This document shows positions 21,890 through 32,661 of a DNA stretch of 34,938 bases, piece after piece. The stretch covers positions 1-34,938 of the forward strand of contig PARB01000013.1 in NCBI GenBank assembly GCA_002709505.1. Direction: 5' to 3'. The DNA is from Paracoccaceae bacterium. GTDB lineage: Bacteria; Pseudomonadota; Alphaproteobacteria; Rhizobiales; Stappiaceae. A program made the position numbers and the translations under genes. The notes under the pieces were generated by a model. The model saw only the letters and a list, made by a program, of their open reading frames with translations. It searched no databases and was not told where the DNA came from. Numbering within the stretch: the stretch's first letter is position 1; each line of letters begins with the position of its first letter.

Positions 21890-22287
21890 CACAACCTCCA
21901 GAGATAGACCCAGCATCCGGGCGTTCGCCGATCCGGAACGAAACCGGTCAGGCGCGCCATGCGCTCGCCCGGCCGATGACCGGGGCGCACATGGGTTTCG
22001 ACCCGCTTGCCAGTGTGGGTGATCTCTTCCAGCCTTAACTGCGCAAGGCGAACCAGCGCGTGCATGTGCGTGCGCGCCTCCGGCCGCAGCGACAGGCAGA
22101 ATTCAAGGCATCCTTCGCGGCACGGCCAGAAATAGGCCACCGCGAGCAGCGTATCGCCGGCGTGAATCGAGACCGTATCCCCGCCGCGCCGCATGTACAG
22201 AACCGCCTTGCGCACCCAGCGGGTCGGTCGCGCGCAGGACAGGCAGTCGTCGCGCAGCGCCGGGGAGCGCGTGGTGAGCGTCACCAC
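21889..22287 (-). CDS. GNAT-like (acetyltransferase-fold) phage protein, degenerate
   Basis: 132 residues from a GTG at 22287 with GAGG seven bases upstream; it overlaps the terminase stop. The layout resembles small phage GNAT proteins between terminase and portal: central strand LLAVAYFWP, then a helix LVRLAQLRLEEI, and a C-terminal ARLTGFVPDRRTPGCWVYLWRL, like the GNAT ending where the last strand follows a GF motif. The glycine-rich acetyl-CoA loop (R/QxxGxG/A) is not recognisable; the equivalent region reads SLRPEARTHM. It may have lost catalysis or only share the fold. Four cysteines in the N-terminal half (CLSC, CREGC) could bind metal. Confidence 0.55.
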   Translation of the reverse strand: MVTLTTRSPALRDDCLSCARPTRWVRKAVLYMRRGGDTVSIHAGDTLLAVAYFWPCREGCLEFCLSLRPEARTHMHALVRLAQLRLEEITHTGKRVETHVRPGHRPGERMARLTGFVPDRRTPGCWVYLWRL

Positions 22288-23861
22288 AGCTTGACCTCGC
22301 TCAAGCGGTCGCGGGACTGCCCGGCCTTGCGGCGCGCACGCAGGCCGACAACGTTGTCGCCGCGCCCGAGCTTCGCGGCATCGTCGATCACGCCGTATCG
22401 GCCGCGGTGGCCCAGGCAGATGTATTGCAGGGCGTCATGCGGGTGGGAGTAGCTGTTTTTCGCCACCGCCAGAACATCGGTCTGCCCGGCGCTTGCCTGT
22501 TTGGTCAGCTTGTAGTGCGCGGCGAAACCGCCGATGATCATGTCGCAACCGGGATCGACGATCATGCGTTCGGTGTTGCCGTCGATAGGCCGGCCGAGAT
22601 ACCAGCGCACCGCTTCCTGACGAATGGCCGGTTCGTTCGAGGGTGCCGGCTGGATGTTGAGGTTGAGCGCCCGCCCGACCGTTTCCATGAACGACAATTC
22701 GCCGGCCTGCCTGTCCGCACCCCAGAACGCGCTCGGATCGCCATAGGCTTCGCTGATCGGGAAGCCCGGAAAGCGCGATAGCAAGACCTCAAGGATCATT
22801 TCGGAAAACCGCGACGGACCGGTGCCGGGTTGAGCGCAGATCTCGCAGAGAATCCGCAGTTGCCCGTTCGGCATTAACTGCACGATCACGGCCGCCGGCG
22901 ACCCGCCGGCGTCGATGCCGATCCCGAGCGGGATACCCTTGACTGGCGTAATCGGCGCATCGGCCTTGTGGCGCTGCAAGGCAAATTCCGGATAGACCGG
23001 CTTTCCATCGAGCGCATAGCCGAACTCGCCGTGCACCATCCGCCGCACGATGTGTTCCGGCTGCGTGGCCGCCTCCATTTCGTAGGAGGAACGCGGCTTT
23101 CCGACCCGGTTTTCAGCGTTGGCGGCAAGGCCGGACGGCTGTCTGAACAAGTTAAAGCCGCGCTTTTTCTCTTTTTCGCAGAAACGGTAAACCCAATTAT
23201 CGATATCAGGGGGATTGAGGTCACCCATCACCATGCGCGGCAAAACAACTTCATTGGGCTCAATACTCAATCCCATTTTTTCCATAACCACGCGACCGTC
23301 CCGCGAGACGCGCTCCAGCTCCGACGGTGCGATATCCGTCACCTTCGGATAACGCCCCGTCCGCTGGAACAGCAGGCCGGGCACTCGCTCGTCGAGCATG
23401 TCGCACTCGTTGATCCACCCGTAGGTGATTTCATAGCCCTTGATGTATTGCTCGATGTTGTGATCGCCGATCGCGCCGGTTTCCATGGTGTAATCGACGA
23501 TGACCTCGCCATAGCCGGGCCGTCTGGCGCGCCATTTGAGACGATGCTTGACGGGGCGATCCTGTCCGCCTTCATGATGCACGGTCCAGGCATGGGAGAT
23601 CGGGAAAGCCTCGTACCAGGAGGCAAGCGCGGTGCGGGAGAAGTCGCGGTAGGTGTCGCGGATACAGGCCACCTTGACCCGGACCACGCCGTCGCGGCAG
23701 ACCGGCGCGTATTGCGCGGCCATAAGCGGCCCCTTCATCACGCAGAGCACGGTTTTTCCAGATCCCGCAGGCCCCATGCAAAGGTCGATTGGCCCCCGCG
23801 AATTCAGAAACCGCGCGCCGACCGGACCCGGCGGTTGATAGTGCTGAACGTCGATCCCCAA
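22281..23861 (-). CDS. Terminase large subunit
   Basis: 526 residues from a TTG at 23861, the only start after an in-frame stop 12 bases upstream and before Walker A; AAGGG lies about eight bases upstream. ATPase: Walker A GPAGSGKT (30-37), Walker B-type WINECD with Glu152-Cys-Asp (149-154). Nuclease domain of RNase H fold: GIDAGG (Asp317), YGDPSA (Asp375) and HPHDALQY (Asp476) give the three metal-binding acids. It packages and cuts concatemeric DNA with TerS at the portal. Unlike T7, where terminase genes are last, this one opens the head operon. The unusual TTG start may limit its level. Confidence 0.93.
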   Translation of the reverse strand: MGIDVQHYQPPGPVGARFLNSRGPIDLCMGPAGSGKTVLCVMKGPLMAAQYAPVCRDGVVRVKVACIRDTYRDFSRTALASWYEAFPISHAWTVHHEGGQDRPVKHRLKWRARRPGYGEVIVDYTMETGAIGDHNIEQYIKGYEITYGWINECDMLDERVPGLLFQRTGRYPKVTDIAPSELERVSRDGRVVMEKMGLSIEPNEVVLPRMVMGDLNPPDIDNWVYRFCEKEKKRGFNLFRQPSGLAANAENRVGKPRSSYEMEAATQPEHIVRRMVHGEFGYALDGKPVYPEFALQRHKADAPITPVKGIPLGIGIDAGGSPAAVIVQLMPNGQLRILCEICAQPGTGPSRFSEMILEVLLSRFPGFPISEAYGDPSAFWGADRQAGELSFMETVGRALNLNIQPAPSNEPAIRQEAVRWYLGRPIDGNTERMIVDPGCDMIIGGFAAHYKLTKQASAGQTDVLAVAKNSYSHPHDALQYICLGHRGRYGVIDDAAKLGRGDNVVGLRARRKAGQSRDRLSEVKLW

Positions 23862-25206: not shown

Positions 25207-25821
25207 CTAACTGTCTGAATTATCTTGCTTTTTCCTGACTTCGCCGGTCAAGCTCATGACGCCATCGGGCGCACGCTCGCCGGAGCCTTCCGACTGGTGG
25301 ATGACCATCACGCCAAAGCGCTGTTCGGTCTGGATCGTCTCGGTCGGCCGCTTGCTCTCGAAATAGGGCATCAGCTCGACATTCGCCGATTTGATCAACG
25401 CCATCGCCTCAGCCCGCTTGCACATCAACTGCTCGGCCAACTTCGCAGGATCGGCATTCGCCAGGTCGGCGAGGTTCAGCCCCGGATGGCGGTAGCCTTG
25501 CTTCAACAGATAGTCCCGGAAAAGCTGGTTCGCCTTGTTCTTCGAGCCTTTCGGCCTCCCGCGCCCTTTCGCGGCCCGGAAGGTTTCCGCGACATGCTCC
25601 ACCGGACCACCGAAAAGGCACGCTTCATCATCAAGCAAGGATGGCTGGTCGGGCTCTTCGTCCGGCTCGATCATCGCGGCCAGGTCATCGAGCGCGGCCT
25701 GTGCGGTCGCGGCCGTGTCGCCGATCTTGGCCGCGCGCTCTTCGTCCGGCTCGATCTCGCCCGGCGTGTGTGCCCCTTCCAGCGTCTTTTTCGGGTCCTG
25801 GTCGGCGCCGTCGTCCTGCAT
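25207..25821 (-). CDS. Probable terminase small subunit (AT-hook-like DNA-binding protein)
   Basis: 204 residues from the ATG at 25821 with GGGGA nine bases upstream; the 23 extra residues of the open frame have no signal. The N-terminal half is acidic and low-complexity (PGEIEPDEERAAK; MIEPDEEPDQPS). A basic motif GRGRPKGSKNKANQLFRDYLLKQGYR (about 109-134) has the AT-hook core GRPKGSKNK. A helical region ANADPAKLAEQLMCKRAEAMALIKSANVELMPYFESKRP follows. Proteins with this RPKGSKNK-plus-helical layout are common just upstream of TerL in alphaproteobacterial phages. It should recognise the packaging site, and repeat arrays lie directly upstream. Assignment is from gene order plus the DNA-binding motif. 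Confidence 0.7.
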   Translation of the reverse strand: MQDDGADQDPKKTLEGAHTPGEIEPDEERAAKIGDTAATAQAALDDLAAMIEPDEEPDQPSLLDDEACLFGGPVEHVAETFRAAKGRGRPKGSKNKANQLFRDYLLKQGYRHPGLNLADLANADPAKLAEQLMCKRAEAMALIKSANVELMPYFESKRPTETIQTEQRFGVMVIHQSEGSGERAPDGVMSLTGEVRKKQDNSDS

Positions 25822-25848
25822 CGGTCTAGATCCCCATTTGTTTATTCC

Positions 25849-26093
25849 GGTTAGCTCGACGGCCGGCGCGACGCGCGGTCTTAACCGCAACCTAACCGCG
25901 ATACGCCAATGAAATCAGGAATATAATTCTACAGGTTAGGGGTTATGAGGTTAGATGAGATCGCGTGTATGCACACGCGCGCGCGTATGAACTTTCCTAA
26001 CCGCGCTAACCGCCTAACCATCAATCCATCCTCATGATTTCATTGAATTAATCGGGTTATGTCGCATCTAACCGCGTCTAACCGACGCTAACC
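25849..26093. repeat. Iteron-like cluster of CTAACC/GGTTAG repeats
   Basis: Ten exact copies in 245 bp. GGTTAG at 25849, 25934, 25949; CTAACC at 25892, 25997, 26006, 26014, 26068, 26078, 26088; TTAACC at 25881 and GGTTAT at 25941 and 26055 are near copies. The last three exact copies are spaced exactly 10 bp apart, so they lie on one helical face. Between the clusters are AT-rich stretches (25907-25932, 26033-26053) and an alternating purine-pyrimidine palindrome CGCGTGT-ATGC-ACACGCG (25962-25979). The region is otherwise non-coding (25822-26434) and separates divergent operons. Candidate replication origin, packaging site or master operator. Confidence 0.75.
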
Positions 26094-26141
26094 ACCCGCA
26101 CCCGTCGGCGGAAGAAATCGACCGTCGCACGCCTCGCCCTG

Positions 26142-26151
26142 CCTTAAGTGC
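26142..26151 (-). promoter_or_regulatory. GCACTTAAGG motif upstream of TerS (copy 1)
   Basis: Perfect copy of the late motif on the minus strand, about 320 bases upstream of the TerS start and just outside the repeat cluster. Confidence 0.45.
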
Positions 26152-26268
26152 CCGCGCCGGCTCGGCGATAGCTTCACGCATCGGCCGCAGGCGCGCGAAA
26201 GCGCGGCGGAGGCGGGCGGGTCGGGTCCGGCGCGGGCTCCGTTTCTCTGCCATCAGGGCGGGGGAAAA

Positions 26269-26278
26269 GGTTAAGTGC
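26269..26278 (-). promoter_or_regulatory. GCACTTAACC motif upstream of TerS (copy 2)
   Basis: Second copy 127 bases further upstream; the 3' part differs (AACC). It lies 80 bases left of the rightward DUF932 promoter, so it may also affect that promoter. Confidence 0.4.
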
Positions 26279-26356
26279 GGCGGTCGATTTTTGGCGGAAA
26301 ACGGGCGGGGGAACGAGCGCGACGGCATAAAAATAAAACCAATGGCAATATTTTCC

Positions 26357-26386
26357 TTGACTGCATTTGATACCAATGGTTATAAA
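26357..26386 (+). promoter_or_regulatory. Sigma70-like promoter for the DUF932 operon
   Basis: -35 TTGACT (26357-26362) and -10 TATAAA (26381-26386) with an 18-bp spacer, or TTATAA with 17 bp. Two direct copies of ACCAATGG flank and enter the promoter (26338-26345 and 26372-26379, 34 bp apart) and may be operators. Confidence 0.6.
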
Positions 26387-26399
26387 TTGATTGTCAACA

Positions 26400-26414
26400 G
26401 CGCCAGTGAGGCGC
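26400..26414 (+). promoter_or_regulatory. Leader hairpin GCGCC-AGTGA-GGCGC before DUF932 gene
   Basis: A 5-bp stem with a 5-nt loop placed in the 5' leader, followed by AAGGGA and the start codon at 26435. The same stem with loop ATTGA precedes the next gene (27359-27373), also followed by AAGGGA. Confidence 0.6.
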
Positions 26415-26434
26415 ACCAGCAAGGGAAATTGACC

Positions 26435-27301
26435 ATGTCGATTTACGCAAACACCGCTCGTTTCGATGGCGCCAAGGTTCTTGGTGAGGATGAGTTGCGC
26501 CGCCTGGCGCCGTCGGTCTTCGCCACATCCGCCCACGAAAGCCGCTCCGACCGTTTTCAGCCGATCCCGACAATCGAGATCCTGCGCGGCTTGATGGCCG
26601 AAGGGTTCATGCCGGTCGGCGCAAAACAGTCTCGCAGCCGCGACGCAAGCAAGGTCCACTTCACCAAGCACATGCTGCGGCTGCGTCGCATCGACGAGGA
26701 TAGCAGCCTGCGCGTTGGCGATACGGTCTGCGAAATCCTGTTGAAGAACGCGAACGACGGTTCCAGCGCATACGATCTGATGGCCGGCCTGTTCCGCATT
26801 CGCTGCCTGAATTCCCTTGTGGCGCAAACGGGCACCATCGACAGCGTGAAAATTCGCCATTCTGGCGACGTCCAGGGCAAGGTGATCGAAGGCACGTATC
26901 GCGTCATGGAAGAGGCGCAAAAGGCGCTGGCGGCGCCGGCGAGCTGGGCGGGCGTGGAGCTGGAGCGGGACGAGCGCATGGCCTTTGCAGAAGCCGCGCA
27001 TGTGCTGCGGTTCGGCGACGCTGACGGCAACGTTGACACGCCGATTACACCTGACCAGCTCCTGCAACCTCGCCGCCGCGATGACCGCGCGGCCGACCTC
27101 TGGACCACGTTCAACGTCGCGCAGGAAAACGTCATTCGCGGCGGGCTGCGCGGTATCACCCGCGATGCCAACGGCCGGCGCCGGCGCGTCTCGACCCGCG
27201 CGGTCAACGGGATCGACCAGGACGTGAAGCTGAACAAGGCCCTTTGGATCCTCTCGCAGCGCATGGCGGAGATGAAAGGCGCGGACAGCCTGGCGGCCTG
27301 A
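26435..27301 (+). CDS. DUF932 family protein
   Basis: 288 residues from the ATG at 26435, which has AAGGGA eight bases upstream; the open frame extends to 26291 without signal and across the promoter. Family features: N-terminal ANTARFDGAKVLGEDELRRLAPSVFATSAHESRSDRFQPIPTIEILRGLMAEGFMPVGAKQSRSRD, then HMLRLRR, the DLMAGLFRIRCLNSLVAQTG block and VMEEAQKAL, and a late TTFNVAQENVIRGGLRG. These match the DUF932 proteins of phages and plasmids, whose biochemical role is unknown and which often sit near recombination genes. First gene of the only rightward operon in the prophage body, and transcribed towards the convergent PadR pair. Confidence 0.88.
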   Translation: MSIYANTARFDGAKVLGEDELRRLAPSVFATSAHESRSDRFQPIPTIEILRGLMAEGFMPVGAKQSRSRDASKVHFTKHMLRLRRIDEDSSLRVGDTVCEILLKNANDGSSAYDLMAGLFRIRCLNSLVAQTGTIDSVKIRHSGDVQGKVIEGTYRVMEEAQKALAAPASWAGVELERDERMAFAEAAHVLRFGDADGNVDTPITPDQLLQPRRRDDRAADLWTTFNVAQENVIRGGLRGITRDANGRRRRVSTRAVNGIDQDVKLNKALWILSQRMAEMKGADSLAA

Positions 27302-27395: not shown

Positions 27396-27644
27396 ATGAG
27401 CAAGTACGACGATTGTCATTTTGCCGCCGGCGTCGCAGCGGCGCACGAGGGGCAGCCAAGGCAGTTGCCATCGTATTTCATGAAGCCAAAAAACAAGAAC
27501 GCGCGGTCATGGCTGGCCGGGTGGGATGCGGCGCGGGAAGAGATGACCGCTCCGACTGAGCCGACACTATGCGGCTTGCAATATGTGATACCGGGATGCG
27601 AAAAAAGGGAACCTATACCGCCCGCACAGATGGACCTTTTCTAG
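27396..27644 (+). CDS. Rmf-like small protein with C-terminal beta-clamp-binding motif
   Basis: 82 residues; start ATG 27396 with AAAGGGAG about ten bases upstream. The N-terminal half resembles the ribosome-modulation-factor fold: HFAAGVAAAHEGQPRQLPSYF, a short basic stretch, then ARSWLAGWDAAREE, with the GxxAAxxG...P...WLAGW spacing. The last five residues are QMDLF, matching the sliding-clamp (DnaN) binding consensus QL(S/D)LF at the exposed C-terminus. It could tether the protein to the replisome or block host polymerase access. Both assignments are motif-based. Second gene of the rightward operon; followed after two bases by an HTH gene. Confidence 0.7.
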   Translation: MSKYDDCHFAAGVAAAHEGQPRQLPSYFMKPKNKNARSWLAGWDAAREEMTAPTEPTLCGLQYVIPGCEKREPIPPAQMDLF

Positions 27645-28738: not shown

Positions 28739-30586
28739 TCACCCCTCGGCTCGCGGCATCGCCGCGTCATAGGCGCCGAGATCGATCAACAGGCAGAATT
28801 TCGCAACCCGGTTGATCTTCACCGTATGGAAGCGCTGCTCCAGCCCGCGCAGGACGATGTGCGATGGTGCCTGCTTAAGCGCCGTCCACCAGCCGCCTTC
28901 GTAGAAGTCGGTTTCCTGATACAGCTTTGTGAGTGCCGGATGGGTGGCCGGGATCGCGAGGAACGGCCCAATGGCGGGCTCGCCCGCCTTGCGCAGACCG
29001 AGACCCGCCAGCGCCAGCCTTTCGCGCGCGTATTGCAATTCGAGCGCGCCGCGTTCGAAATCCGCGACCACGCCGCCGACTGTCAGACGGTCACCGCTCC
29101 GCCAGCCCTCGATATGGGCTGATAGCAGATGCTCGATGCACTCTTGCCACTTCTCGACCTGTTCGGCTCGCTCCGCTTCCGTGGCCGCGCGGATGACTTC
29201 GGCAAGCGCGGCCTGGTCGGAGACCTCAAGGCCGAGATCTTCCAGCGCTTCCGGGCCGACCAGCAGTTCGGCCGCAGCCAGTAGCGTGCCGTAGGTGTCC
29301 ATTGCGCGGGCATCGAAACCCGCCATGTGCAGCGTCTGTTTCCAGTCTGGCAGGATGCGCGTGCGGAATTCCTGCCAGCCGTCCATGATCTGGCGCAGAA
29401 GCATGCGGCCGTCGGTGTCGCGCACCACCGGCTCGCGGCCGTGGCCCTTGTCCAGCTTGCGCAGGTTCAGCGTCGCCATGCGCGTGCGATCCTGCACGCC
29501 CATCGGGGGAGGGATGATCGCCGAGAACATGAAGCACGATTGCGCCTGGAACGTGGTGCCCTCGTGGTTCGCGCCGCCGCGCGCCATCTTGCCGCCCGAC
29601 GACGCGAGCCGCGCCAGCTCGATAATCGAGGTCGACTTTGAGCTGTTGCGCTTGGCCTCCAGCTCGTCGACCGTCACCGGGAGGCTGTCCTGCTTGACGT
29701 GCTGATAGATGCCGGCGGCCGTGGTGTCGACCAGCGCGATCAGCGCGTCGCCGAGAATGCTTTGAACCAGCTTGTGCAAGGTCGACTTGCCGACGCCAGC
29801 GCCGCCACTGGTGAAGACGATGGGGCGCCAGTCGAGCGCGCCGCCCATGAACGCGCAGGCGATCCAGCCGAGGAACAAGACCGGGTCGAGATAGGGCCGC
29901 TCCCAATTCCAGGTTCGCAGATCCTCCAGGATCGATTGCGCGGGGCTTTGCTCGCGATCGATCGACGTTTCCCAGGGCCGTTCGATGTCGGGCGCGCGGG
30001 TGTAGAGATACCCGTCATGCTCAGACGGCCGCGCGGTCTCCAGCTTGCCGGTCGTGTCGGCCATCCAGAGCCATTCGCCGGAATTCCAGATGAAGTTGCC
30101 GGCATCGGCCATCCAGCCGCCCCGGCCGCGCACGCGCTTTTCCGGATCGAACAGGCCGCGCCGCTTGCCCTCCGAAACCAGACAGATCATCGCCTTGTCG
30201 CGCTCCACGCGGTCGACCTTGTAGATCGGTTGTCCGTCTTCGTTGGTGCCGGTCTTTTTGAACGCCGGCCAGGCCCAATAGGCATAGTTGATTTTCGGCG
30301 CGAACAAGCTGGTCAGAACATGCATGTCCCAGCGCTCGACGGCGTGGAGCTGACCGCTCGCCGACCGGCAATAGGTGGTGACGCCATTGTGGCCGAGGAC
30401 TTCGACCGGGCAGGCTGGCGGCATCCGGTCGAAGGGCGCGCCGTCCCACTTTCCCGGACCGATTCCCTCGCGCGGCAGGTTCGGATCGGGATCGAGGATT
30501 TCCTCGCGCTCCGAAAGCCGACGCGTCGCCTCGATAAAATGGGCTCGGGTTGCCTGTCTGCCGACCTGTGTGCGCCGCTTTGCCAT
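28739..30586 (-). CDS. Phage replication ATPase / helicase
   Basis: 615 residues from the ATG at 30586 (AAGGA about twelve bases upstream, GGGCG nearer); the 23 residues added by the longer frame overlap the terminator hairpin. N-terminal region with WDMHVLTSLFAPKINYAYWAWPAF and DAGNFIWNSGEWLW. The ATPase core has Walker A SGGAGVGKST (260-269), Walker B-like LPVTVDELE (302-310) and FMFSAIIPPPM, the arrangement found in primase-linked superfamily-3-like or RecA-like phage helicases. It probably unwinds DNA at phage replication forks with the Toprim primase of the same cluster. Separated from that cluster by an intrinsic terminator. Confidence 0.8.
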   Translation of the reverse strand: MAKRRTQVGRQATRAHFIEATRRLSEREEILDPDPNLPREGIGPGKWDGAPFDRMPPACPVEVLGHNGVTTYCRSASGQLHAVERWDMHVLTSLFAPKINYAYWAWPAFKKTGTNEDGQPIYKVDRVERDKAMICLVSEGKRRGLFDPEKRVRGRGGWMADAGNFIWNSGEWLWMADTTGKLETARPSEHDGYLYTRAPDIERPWETSIDREQSPAQSILEDLRTWNWERPYLDPVLFLGWIACAFMGGALDWRPIVFTSGGAGVGKSTLHKLVQSILGDALIALVDTTAAGIYQHVKQDSLPVTVDELEAKRNSSKSTSIIELARLASSGGKMARGGANHEGTTFQAQSCFMFSAIIPPPMGVQDRTRMATLNLRKLDKGHGREPVVRDTDGRMLLRQIMDGWQEFRTRILPDWKQTLHMAGFDARAMDTYGTLLAAAELLVGPEALEDLGLEVSDQAALAEVIRAATEAERAEQVEKWQECIEHLLSAHIEGWRSGDRLTVGGVVADFERGALELQYARERLALAGLGLRKAGEPAIGPFLAIPATHPALTKLYQETDFYEGGWWTALKQAPSHIVLRGLEQRFHTVKINRVAKFCLLIDLGAYDAAMPRAEG

Positions 30587-30639: not shown

Positions 30640-30661
30640 ACGCCTCCAGCCGCAACCGGCC

Positions 30662-31540
30662 TTAGCGGCCCTTGGCGGTCTCCGTCAGCGCCAGCGGCGC
30701 CTTGACGAGTTTCAGCGAGAGATCGCGCGGGTCGGGCTTCGCAGCCTTGGCCGCCAGCTCCGCGTCGGTCGGGGTGGGCGGTTCCGCCTCGCGCAGGTGC
30801 CGTTCGGCATGGGCGAGCACGTCGCGGAACACCCGCACCTTGAACCGCAGCGTGTCGTCGCCGCCGCGCGCCTTGCCGCGCATGGAAAGCTGCGTCACCA
30901 CCGCCTCGTCGCTCGCGTCCGGTGCGCTGCGCAGGAAGTCGGCCATGCACACGGCCTGGTCTGCGAGTTTTTCCGGGTCGGGCTGGGGCGCATCCTCACC
31001 AATCAACCCGCGCACGGCCGAGCGCGTCGCCCGGAAGGCAATCCACAGCGCATGGTCACCACCGAACAGCGGCGGGCCAGCGGGCAGGGGCACATGGTCC
31101 TGCGGAGACGGAGCCTCTTGCACGGGCGCCGGGATATAGGTCTGTTCGAAGATTTCCGGCTTGCACGGGTAGTGCTCGCCAGCAACGCCACGGATCACGA
31201 AGTCGCCGCGATCCACCCAATGCGCGCCTTCCAGCGTCGCAATCGAGAGACATTCACCACGCTTCGGGTGCGTGTCCATGGTGGCCGGGGTCGCACTTCC
31301 CCGCGTCCAGTCGATAATGGCGCGATTGCTTTCGGGCGACCCGTCCGCGCGCATCGCTTCCACCTGCACCTGGCGCTTTTCGTAGATGCGCGGTTCCGAG
31401 AAACCTTCCTCGCCGTCCGGAAACTCATTCACCCAAACATGGGAAACTTCAATTCCTCGTATTCTTCCCGCAGACGCGCCTTCTTCAGCGCTTATCTCCT
31501 GACCTTTCGGCTTTGCATTGGTCTTCCGCTTTCTGGTCAT
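30662..31540 (-). CDS. Phage protein with PGDYG-like domain
   Basis: 292 residues; ATG at 31540 with GGAG seven bases upstream, overlapping the primase stop as ATGA. Basic N-terminus (TRKRKTNAKPKGQ). Residues about 105-135 contain GAHWVDRGDFVIRGVAGEHYPCKPEIFEQTY, resembling the PGDYG-type module (P/RGDYIVTGVKGExYPVxPxIFxxTY) seen in phage and bacterial small proteins. A Pro-rich linker follows, then a helical block LWIAFRATRSAVRGLIGEDAPQPDPEKLADQAVCMADFL. Molecular function unknown; location between primase and helicase suggests replication support. Followed by the terminator at 30607-30639. Confidence 0.65.
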   Translation of the reverse strand: MTRKRKTNAKPKGQEISAEEGASAGRIRGIEVSHVWVNEFPDGEEGFSEPRIYEKRQVQVEAMRADGSPESNRAIIDWTRGSATPATMDTHPKRGECLSIATLEGAHWVDRGDFVIRGVAGEHYPCKPEIFEQTYIPAPVQEAPSPQDHVPLPAGPPLFGGDHALWIAFRATRSAVRGLIGEDAPQPDPEKLADQAVCMADFLRSAPDASDEAVVTQLSMRGKARGGDDTLRFKVRVFRDVLAHAERHLREAEPPTPTDAELAAKAAKPDPRDLSLKLVKAPLALTETAKGR

Positions 31541-32661
31541 TCCACGTCTCCTTTTCCCAGGTCGTTGAAGTCCGATCCCGCATGCGGCTTCATCAGATCC
31601 AGCGGCTTACCGCTGTCGCCGAGTTGTTCCAGCGTGCGGTCGAGCTGCTGTTGCGCCTGCGGTTTGTCCCAATCGTTTTCACCGGCAACGATCACGCAGG
31701 ACACAAAGTCGAAATTCACCGGCACATTGCCGATCCCGCTGATCGACCCGGCTGCGGCGACCCGCGCTTCCGGGACATCCATCGCGATCTGCAAGCCGGT
31801 CTCGATGCCTTCGGAGAGGATTAGCGGTGCCGGACGGGTCGCTTCCCAGGGCGGCACGCCTTCCGGGCCGTGCGAGAGCCACACGGCAGCTCCTTTCGTC
31901 GCGGCTTTCATCAGCCGCGGGGAATGCTTTGGGCCGAGGTCCGCCTTGAGCGGATGGAGCGGGTCCAGAAAGGTGACGTGGCAGGCCCGGAACTGACCGA
32001 GTGGCGTGCGCATCGCGGCGATGATCGCGGGAAACGCCGGACCCGGCCGCGTCTTGACGCGCCGCCCGGTCGCCTCGTCGACCGACCATTGCGCCAGCGT
32101 CCAGTACTCGACCTCCTGAGCGAAGCGCAGCGACGTGCGGTCGCGGTGGCGGATCGCGCCGAGATCGATTCCCCGATGCGCCAGATACTCCCGTGCGTGT
32201 TGCTCGACGGTGGAGTTGGCGCCGTCCATAAACCCGCGTTCGTACAGCTTTTCCGCCTGTCTGCGCTGCCACTCGGCCGCGCGACGCGCTTTCTCGTCAT
32301 CCTCCTTGGCGCGCGCCTGCGCGGCGATTGCGAACGAGCGGCGCTCCGTTGCCGTCATTTTTTCCAGACCGAGGAAGTCGCGCGCCCATTGCAGCGCCCC
32401 CTTGAAATCGGTCTGGTGCAGGTACTCGATCAGCCCGAGCACATCGCCCTTGTCGCCGGTCCGCCAGTCCTTCCAGGCGCCCTTGTCGCGATCCAGCCCG
32501 ACCTTGAGTTCCGGTGTCTTGCGATGATCGCCCGTCACCGGATTGTTCGAAACCCACAGCCGGCCCATCCGCCGGCCATCCGGCAGAAGGCGACGGCACA
32601 GGTCCTCGATCTTGTCCTTGAGACCCTGCTTGATCTCTTCCAGCTCGCGACGGTCGCCCAT
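31537..32661 (-). CDS. Toprim-domain DNA primase (phage type)
   Basis: 374 residues; start ATG 32661, three bases after the preceding stop. The N-terminal region (24-100: CRRLLPDGRRMGRLWVSNNP, KDWRTGDKGDVLGLIEYL) looks like a CHC2-type primase start without the full zinc ligands. A long charged helix follows (100-150), then the primase-specific region. Toprim motifs: LSEGIETGLQIA (Glu284), VIVAGENDWDKP (327-334), where Asp-x-Asp is replaced by Glu-Asn-Asp-Trp-Asp, and SDFNDL (363-368) near the C-terminus, as in Toprim_3 phage primases. It makes RNA primers for phage replication; the helicase gene lies two genes downstream. Confidence 0.85.
   Translation of the reverse strand: MGDRRELEEIKQGLKDKIEDLCRRLLPDGRRMGRLWVSNNPVTGDHRKTPELKVGLDRDKGAWKDWRTGDKGDVLGLIEYLHQTDFKGALQWARDFLGLEKMTATERRSFAIAAQARAKEDDEKARRAAEWQRRQAEKLYERGFMDGANSTVEQHAREYLAHRGIDLGAIRHRDRTSLRFAQEVEYWTLAQWSVDEATGRRVKTRPGPAFPAIIAAMRTPLGQFRACHVTFLDPLHPLKADLGPKHSPRLMKAATKGAAVWLSHGPEGVPPWEATRPAPLILSEGIETGLQIAMDVPEARVAAAGSISGIGNVPVNFDFVSCVIVAGENDWDKPQAQQQLDRTLEQLGDSGKPLDLMKPHAGSDFNDLGKGDVE

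Follow-up and report, generated by a model that had tools for sequence, protein, structure and literature searches.

The window analysed here, a 34,938-bp stretch that forms the first half of a 68-kb contig, carries terminase, primase and helicase genes of a Stappia prophage (Table 1). The feature of interest is a cluster of CTAACC/GGTTAG hexamers that fills the gap between a candidate gene for the small terminase subunit (terS) and a second conserved block preceding a DUF932 gene; divergently read genes flank the cluster, and genes for HTH-like and PadR-like proteins lie nearby. The TerS candidate found no PHROG family at E 0.001 and no match in the annotated phage collection, and its assumed ATG is 27 bp from the array. 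The helicase gene is 2.6 kb from the array, with other genes between; for this gene the ATG at 30586 was assumed as the start, and the open frame continues to a TTG at 30655.

Table 1. Features at the repeat array and in its surroundings, in window coordinates
Feature	Coordinates	Strand	Basis or content
Large terminase subunit, TerL	22281..23861	-	phrog_2 match
Small terminase subunit candidate, TerS (KGRGRPKGSKNK)	25207..25821	-	named by position and motif, without family match
Iteron array, proposed replication origin	25849..26093	.	10 exact GGTTAG/CTAACC and 3 one-mismatch sites; conserved in relatives
Outer cluster, terS side	25849..25897	.	sites 25849-, 25881+ (TTAACC), 25892+
AT-rich stretch, candidate unwinding element	25905..25931	.	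AT 0.70; between inner and outer clusters
Inner cluster, terS side	25934..25954	-	sites 25934, 25941 (degenerate), 25949
Dyad centre	25963..25988	.	alternating purine-pyrimidine stretch, AT 0.35
Inner cluster, helicase side	25997..26019	+	sites 25997, 26006, 26014
AT-rich stretch, candidate unwinding element	26025..26054	.	AT 0.67; between inner and outer clusters
Outer cluster, helicase side	26055..26093	.	sites 26055- (degenerate), 26068+, 26078+, 26088+
Conserved inverted-repeat element beside array	26127..26278	+	compensatory base-pair changes
D5/SF3-like helicase, proposed initiator	28739..30586	-	PHROG matches, AlphaFold2 model, PDB fold matches, association with arrays
Primase (DUF7146 and Toprim_3), replication module	31537..32661	-	family matches

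Ten exact copies of CTAACC or GGTTAG occur in the window, and all ten fall inside the array, where 0.096 would be expected per 245 bp from the composition of the window and 0.126 from local composition (Poisson probability of at least ten, 1.7e-17 and 2.4e-16, respectively). A sequence-only reading of this DNA had reported ten exact copies in 245 bp against about 0.1 expected, and its count and positions hold, including those at 26068, 26078 and 26088; its claim of 10-bp phasing is borne out for that right-hand triplet and for no other part of the array, the remaining gaps between neighbouring sites being 7–15, 32, 41–42 and 48 bp. The larger regularity is one of site clusters arranged around a dyad near 25976, with a CG stretch (the "Z-DNA-like" palindrome of the earlier reading) at the centre. 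Three one-mismatch sites fit the array (TTAACC at 25881 on the plus strand; ATAACC at 25941 and 26055 on the minus strand) and bring the total to 13, against a mean of 0.98 and a maximum of 5 such sites per 285 bp elsewhere in the window (500 random draws). The runner-up hexamer in the window, CGGTTA, reaches 7 copies per 250 bp and overlaps the CTAACC motif, and all others reach at most 6; a search of the genome that contains the window for the CTAACC pair pattern returned this array as the sole location. AT-rich DNA separates the iteron sets on both sides of the dyad, with one stretch between the inner and the outer cluster of each half; in place of a single AT-rich region with one iteron set on either side, the array shows four clusters about a dyad. 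Third-position GC skew changes weakly across the array, from -0.07 on the left to +0.01 on the right, which is compatible with two forks leaving in opposite directions without deciding the matter.

Other signals in this part of the window can be described briefly. Next to the array lies an inverted-repeat element whose surroundings (26100–26290) fold more stably than shuffled sequence on the plus strand (z -3.7; minus strand, z -1.05). An alignment of seven sequences, the window included, gives 36 consensus pairs with 91.3% of pair cells kept, and nine pairs have changes on both sides (shuffle mean 4.0; nine reached in 1 of 500 shuffles); both figures are scored in the same alignment from which the structure was derived, and the RNAalifold covariation term is small (-0.14). 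Candidate identities for the element are an RNA, a cruciform and a portion of a cos site. A search for Rfam families in 25700–26500 gave two sub-threshold mir-H2 matches with E above 4, which we regard as chance, and a terminator scan around the array found one terminator-like site against 1.2 expected. Further along, a small open reading frame at 27396–27644 resembles ribosome modulation factor at a level (E 7e-5) that does not pass the Pfam cut-off.

Is the array a peculiarity of this one prophage? Homologs of the TerS candidate were found in 6 of the 101 genomes searched, the one that contains the window included, and in three viral contigs, one of which is the window's own phage; the named relatives are Stappia stellulata SN27-3 and a Stappia MAG, and the close-relative loci number eight in all with duplicates counted. 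Large parts of the phage are syntenic among these relatives. The earlier reading had counted loss of the repeats in related prophages as evidence against its interpretation; no loss was seen in the five close relatives that were aligned (G005, G013, G001, G014 and IMG20180), all of which keep the array in place with near-identical spacing, and all of which have matches to the helicase, the primase, TerS and TerL. The candidate regulator genes behave differently. Counterparts of the DUF932 and HTH genes are present in G005 and G013 only, with no match in G001, G014 or IMG20180, although the array is kept there, and among the close-relative phages compared the PadR-like gene occurs solely in the window's own phage. 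Relatives of the DUF932 protein turned up at seven loci, and since six of these have no CTAACC cluster, the exception (L013) being the window's own phage, the array does not follow DUF932.

The array is associated with the helicase, whose identity was approached by sequence and by fold. Its best PHROG match is phrog_21086, a family with no assigned function, and its second is phrog_35358, labelled DNA primase (E 3e-39). A sequence search of the PDB gave no match, and a search of the PDB with the helicase profile gave a weak match over the P-loop region (E 0.0027, "phosphate-loop protein") along with chance-level matches. The fold search was more informative: the AlphaFold2 model (mean pLDDT 78, pTM 0.60) matched AsfvPrimPol, poxvirus E5/D5 and the C-terminal region of NrS-1 with a Foldseek probability of 1.00 at low TM scores of 0.20–0.29 by query length, and the SaPI5 primase-helicase (7ola) appeared at rank 39. 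The predicted fold is thus D5/SF3-like, with remote similarity. Because the TM scores are low, we assign a DNA-binding role to the C-terminal domain by analogy; in these terms that domain is the proposed binder of the iterons.

The association between helicase and array becomes clear when relatives of the helicase are followed to places where the iteron word is no longer CTAACC. We sought such relatives in the class (385 genomes) and in the order (397 genomes). Not counting the window's own, 43 places were listed, of which 31 were fetched, and 12 weak or partial matches were left out. Among six distant relatives whose helicase is 37–52% identical (L090 and L096–L100), no CTAACC cluster was found, and at the same place there are arrays built of other words, i.e. 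GGTAAC/GGTTAC, GGTAGAC, GGTTAC, GGCAAC and GGGGACAC. A hexamer-cluster scan that is blind to the word found an array downstream of a helicase relative in 41 of 43 loci, the window included, with best scores of 9.9–20.9 in those loci against 5.1 and 4.1 in the two without an array (L363 and L372, the latter on a contig that ends about 2 kb past the gene). The 41 arrays have 18 top hexamers, which cluster into 8 motif groups at a similarity cut-off of 0.7, into 11 at 0.75 and into 14 at 0.8. The arrays represent fewer than 41 independent cases because several rows are close relatives: L354–L357, L096/L099, L365/L366, and L100 and L360 with identical figures.

The layout is steady while the word changes. 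Geometry was counted in 40 of the 41 arrays, L350 having no definable centre. Measured from the centre, 171 sites lie at 20–60 bp and 249 at 75–130 bp, with 2 sites at 60–75 bp between these belts and 22 past 130 bp. The centre was defined as the middle of a 44–110 bp gap, so the empty central zone is partly a matter of construction; the empty zone at 60–75 bp is independent of how the centre was set. Averaged over the 40 arrays, AT content is 0.65–0.68 at -70/-60 and 0.66–0.74 at +50 to +70, and it falls to its minimum of 0.24 at the centre; a CGCGCG-type centre is found also in relatives that use other iterons. L371, for example, has the near-palindromic spacing 11, 12, 42, 9, 9, 56, 9, 8, 42, 12, 11, with sites on the strands in the order >>><<<>>><<<.

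In this lineage terS, too, is a steady companion of the array. In all 36 loci with a TerS relative (36 of the 41 arrays) the TerS candidate starts between -44 and +95 bp from the array end, and the distance from array to TerL match is 775–1210 bp in 35 of the 36 and 1988 bp in the window; distances to the helicase reach 6.5 kb. The five remaining loci, L373–L377, separate helicase and TerS. There no TerL match was found in the fetched stretch (tblastn, E 1e-8) and no TerS match after the array, and the arrays directly follow the helicase gene, at -4 to 97 bp from its stop. The terminases in the two of these loci that were scanned, L374 and L375, belong to phrog_9 and phrog_15. In three scanned loci a phrog_9306 protein occupies the TerS place right after the array (L374:3536-4135, L375:3469-4128 and L376:3408-4067).

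Plasmids extend the pattern. Three Arsenophonus nasoniae plasmids of 7.9–11.6 kb, paNv_CAN17, paNv_CAN18 and paPv15, each carry about 12 sites 50–350 bp after the helicase gene, and each uses its own word. The gaps on paNv_CAN17 are again near-palindromic (12, 12, 12, 43, 8, 102, 8, 43, 12, 12, 12), and the arrays of paPv15 and paNv_CAN18 are similar and less regular. Searches with the window's TerL and with a TerS profile found no relative on any of the three; a gene annotated as terminase small subunit is present on paNv_CAN17 and paPv15, and paNv_CAN18 has no annotated terminase in its gene table, which may be incomplete. Because L380 and L382 have such an annotated small subunit and no TerL relative, these plasmids (L380–L382) may be phage satellites. 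A protelomerase is annotated on L380 and L381, and L381 and L382 are recorded as linear. The Arsenophonus plasmids were among ten records fetched out of 37 named ones, 23 of phages and 14 of plasmids, in which the helicase found a match. Scores of at least 14 were reached by these three, by an unassigned phage (L384) and by Acinetobacter phage Acjo_20 (L387), in which the array lies upstream of the helicase; L388 and L385 reached 11.3 and 9.9, and L383 and L389 only 6.5 and 5.0. By record name, arrays were moderate in Atlantibacter plasmid pLH84-a-B and Serratia phage MQ-4 and weak in the Phaeobacter and Leisingera plasmids, and none was found in Bordetella phage PBb001.

Correlation between proteins and iteron words points to the same partner. 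In a Mantel set of 33 phages (three near-duplicates and the five rows without TerS were left out), iteron similarity correlates with similarity of the C-terminal part of the helicase (r 0.439; the rows are partly redundant and kinship is ignored). The C-terminal part keeps r 0.226 (p 0.0005, kinship ignored) when the N-terminal part and TerS are given, against r 0.049 (p 0.17) for the N-terminal part given the C-terminal part; for TerS a weak residue of r 0.13 is left (p 0.0065, kinship ignored).

The GGTTAG word itself is used more widely. In scans of viral contigs for GGTTAG triplets, counting arrays with at least 6 sites and at least 2 per strand and with the window's close relatives outside the count, 19 of the 32 mixed arrays among the matches listed are no more than 200 bp away from where an open reading frame of at least 400 aa has its 3' end, against 2.9 expected from random positions with related contigs counted separately (e.g. 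L115, L138 and L142). One-strand clusters, with at most one minor-strand site, do so in 4 of 32 cases among the matches listed against 1.5 expected. Scans of 13 of the 19 reading frames placed 12 in primase or helicase families (VapE-like, AAA_25, phrog_35358, phrog_8841 and others) and the remaining one, in L042, in a family of unknown function. Further neighbours include a primase/helicase match in L137, where the array overlaps the gene, and an FtsK-like match in L102; the L106 cluster lies inside a primosomal/replication-initiation gene. Among the matches listed, 13 of the 32 mixed arrays are away from any large-frame 3' end. Under a looser definition of a mixed-strand cluster (at least 6 sites in 450 bp, at least 1 per strand), GGTTAG gives 44 of 145 among the matches listed, some loci of the window's own family included, against 7 of the 120 matches listed for the same-composition control word GTAGTG. 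GGTTAG is therefore over-represented relative to the control; we do not claim a universal GGTTAG-binding protein, because other words occupy the same scaffold, and a search by GGTTAG triplets selects for those origins that happen to use that word. Individual examples of mixed-strand GGTTAG arrays at the 3' end of primase-helicase genes are L109, L141, L145, L146, L149, L127, L115 and L156. Mixed arrays near TerL were seen in L101 and L133, and L147 and L150 are alike by gene layout and site spacing; these four arrays, none of which is close to a large-frame 3' end, are unexplained by the helicase rule.

We conclude, with a probability of about 0.86, that this Stappia prophage starts its replication at the array, an origin that would be a variant of the SaPI/PICI type with the phage's own D5/SF3-like helicase as its likely initiator. 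Of the three roles that the sequence-only reading had left side by side, origin, packaging site and HTH operator, the first is thus well supported, and the others are weighed below. Mechanistically, the C-terminal domains of helicase subunits would bind the iteron clusters on either side of the dyad, one ring per half, so that two helicase rings would form in head-to-head orientation; the DNA would melt at the AT-rich stretches that separate the inner from the outer clusters; and the primase would start both forks, which would leave in opposite directions. We infer that the six to seven sites per half fit one hexamer per half.

How does such an origin compare with known ones? At lambda ori, in gene O, and at P4 ori/crr, a phage initiator recognises iterons and there is an AT-rich melting region. 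The lambda O protein is not a helicase and its iterons lie within its gene, and the P4 alpha protein is a primase-helicase that uses another iteron in another layout. The closest likeness is to the origins of SaPIs and PICIs, in which a pair of iteron sets, located 3' of rep, borders an AT-rich region on both sides (PMC6092414); short iterons grouped in sets about AT-rich DNA are common to these origins and the present array (PMC6092414, PMC7581432). The known origins lie next to a primase-helicase gene or 3' of it, as do the arrays of L373–L377 and of the three plasmids, and the window's array is 2.6 kb from the helicase gene with other genes between. For several E. coli PICIs the iteron sequences are given separately (PMC6092414, PMC7581432). 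The present array differs in having four clusters about a dyad and a GC-rich centre with AT-rich stretches on both sides, and in that the phage origin lies up to 6.5 kb from the helicase and close to terS. Because it has four clusters and two AT-rich stretches arranged about a dyad, we file the array, which occurs on phages and small plasmids, as a variant of the SaPI/PICI-like iteron origin rather than as a PICI origin proper. The SCCmec helicase Cch2 binds origin-like repeats downstream of its own gene through its C-terminal domain (PMC7581432), a likeness in that direct repeats lie downstream of a D5-type helicase gene; its site differs in that only three iterons of 5 nt are reported and they form no dyad array (PMC7581432). 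At the RepA origin of the Vibrio cholerae PLE, too, replication depends on iterons to which an initiator encoded by the element itself binds; this origin differs in its RepA_N-type initiator and its three semi-palindromic repeats of about 30 bp (PMC7145576, PMC8263062). A search of titles and abstracts, with subscription journals largely outside it, found no description of this array.

The alternatives start from the neighbourhood of terS. One is that the array serves two purposes, as a helicase-bound origin that is also read by TerS and hands replicated DNA to packaging; the steady closeness to terS in this lineage, the helicase association elsewhere and the weak TerS correlation would all suit it, and the closeness can be a by-product of a gene order in which the origin stands between helicase and late operon, so we consider it improbable. 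Somewhat less probable still is a packaging site proper, pac or cosB-like, with TerS binding the repeats and starting packaging next to its own gene. The lambda terminase acts at cosB, and lambda cosB and SPP1 pac are sets of repeated TerS-binding sites beside terS, which is how the array looks in the window, 27 bp from the assumed terS start; the constant presence of terS beside it in 36 of 36 loci, the steady distance to TerL and the residual TerS–iteron correlation fit as well. A packaging site would be expected only with its cognate TerS, however, and 5 of the 41 arrays and the three plasmids have no TerS relative; unlike cosB or pac, the arrays occur also with other terminases (in two of the five loci) and on plasmids with no relative of this terminase, and 19 of the 32 GGTTAG arrays among the matches listed elsewhere lie at large reading frames, mostly primase-helicases where scanned. 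Because the five loci and three plasmids keep the array at the helicase gene, packaging is unlikely to be its main role, and we propose that the TerS candidate is a neighbour of the array rather than its binder. The weakest alternative, an operator array through which an HTH, PadR-like or DUF932 regulator controls the divergent operons, takes its appeal from the intergenic position and the nearby regulator genes, and we regard it as very improbable because DUF932 and HTH counterparts exist in only two of the five close relatives and the array is kept in the other three, where PadR-like counterparts are missing too, and similar arrays sit on plasmids; a sigma-70 scan around the array found no promoter, a simple scan that says little for this bacterial class.

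With the array read as a helicase-bound origin, a broader picture can be drawn, tentatively and at somewhat less than even odds: these phage and plasmid origins would make up one family whose dyad geometry is steady, with some 6–7 sites in each half to match one hexamer there, and whose iteron word is a fast-changing lock that co-evolves with the C-terminus of the helicase. To our knowledge, few temperate phages have a mapped origin, and the word-blind scan gives a candidate origin in 41 of 43 loci of this helicase family. The 8–14 iteron words on one scaffold amount to a natural test set for how an initiator helicase reads its origin; with the same variants one could ask if a hexamer is loaded by some six sites in each half, and in what way the specificity of an origin shifts. 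The array also ties phage origins to those of the SaPI/PICI type, and further to small plasmids, of which some are recorded as linear with a protelomerase gene.
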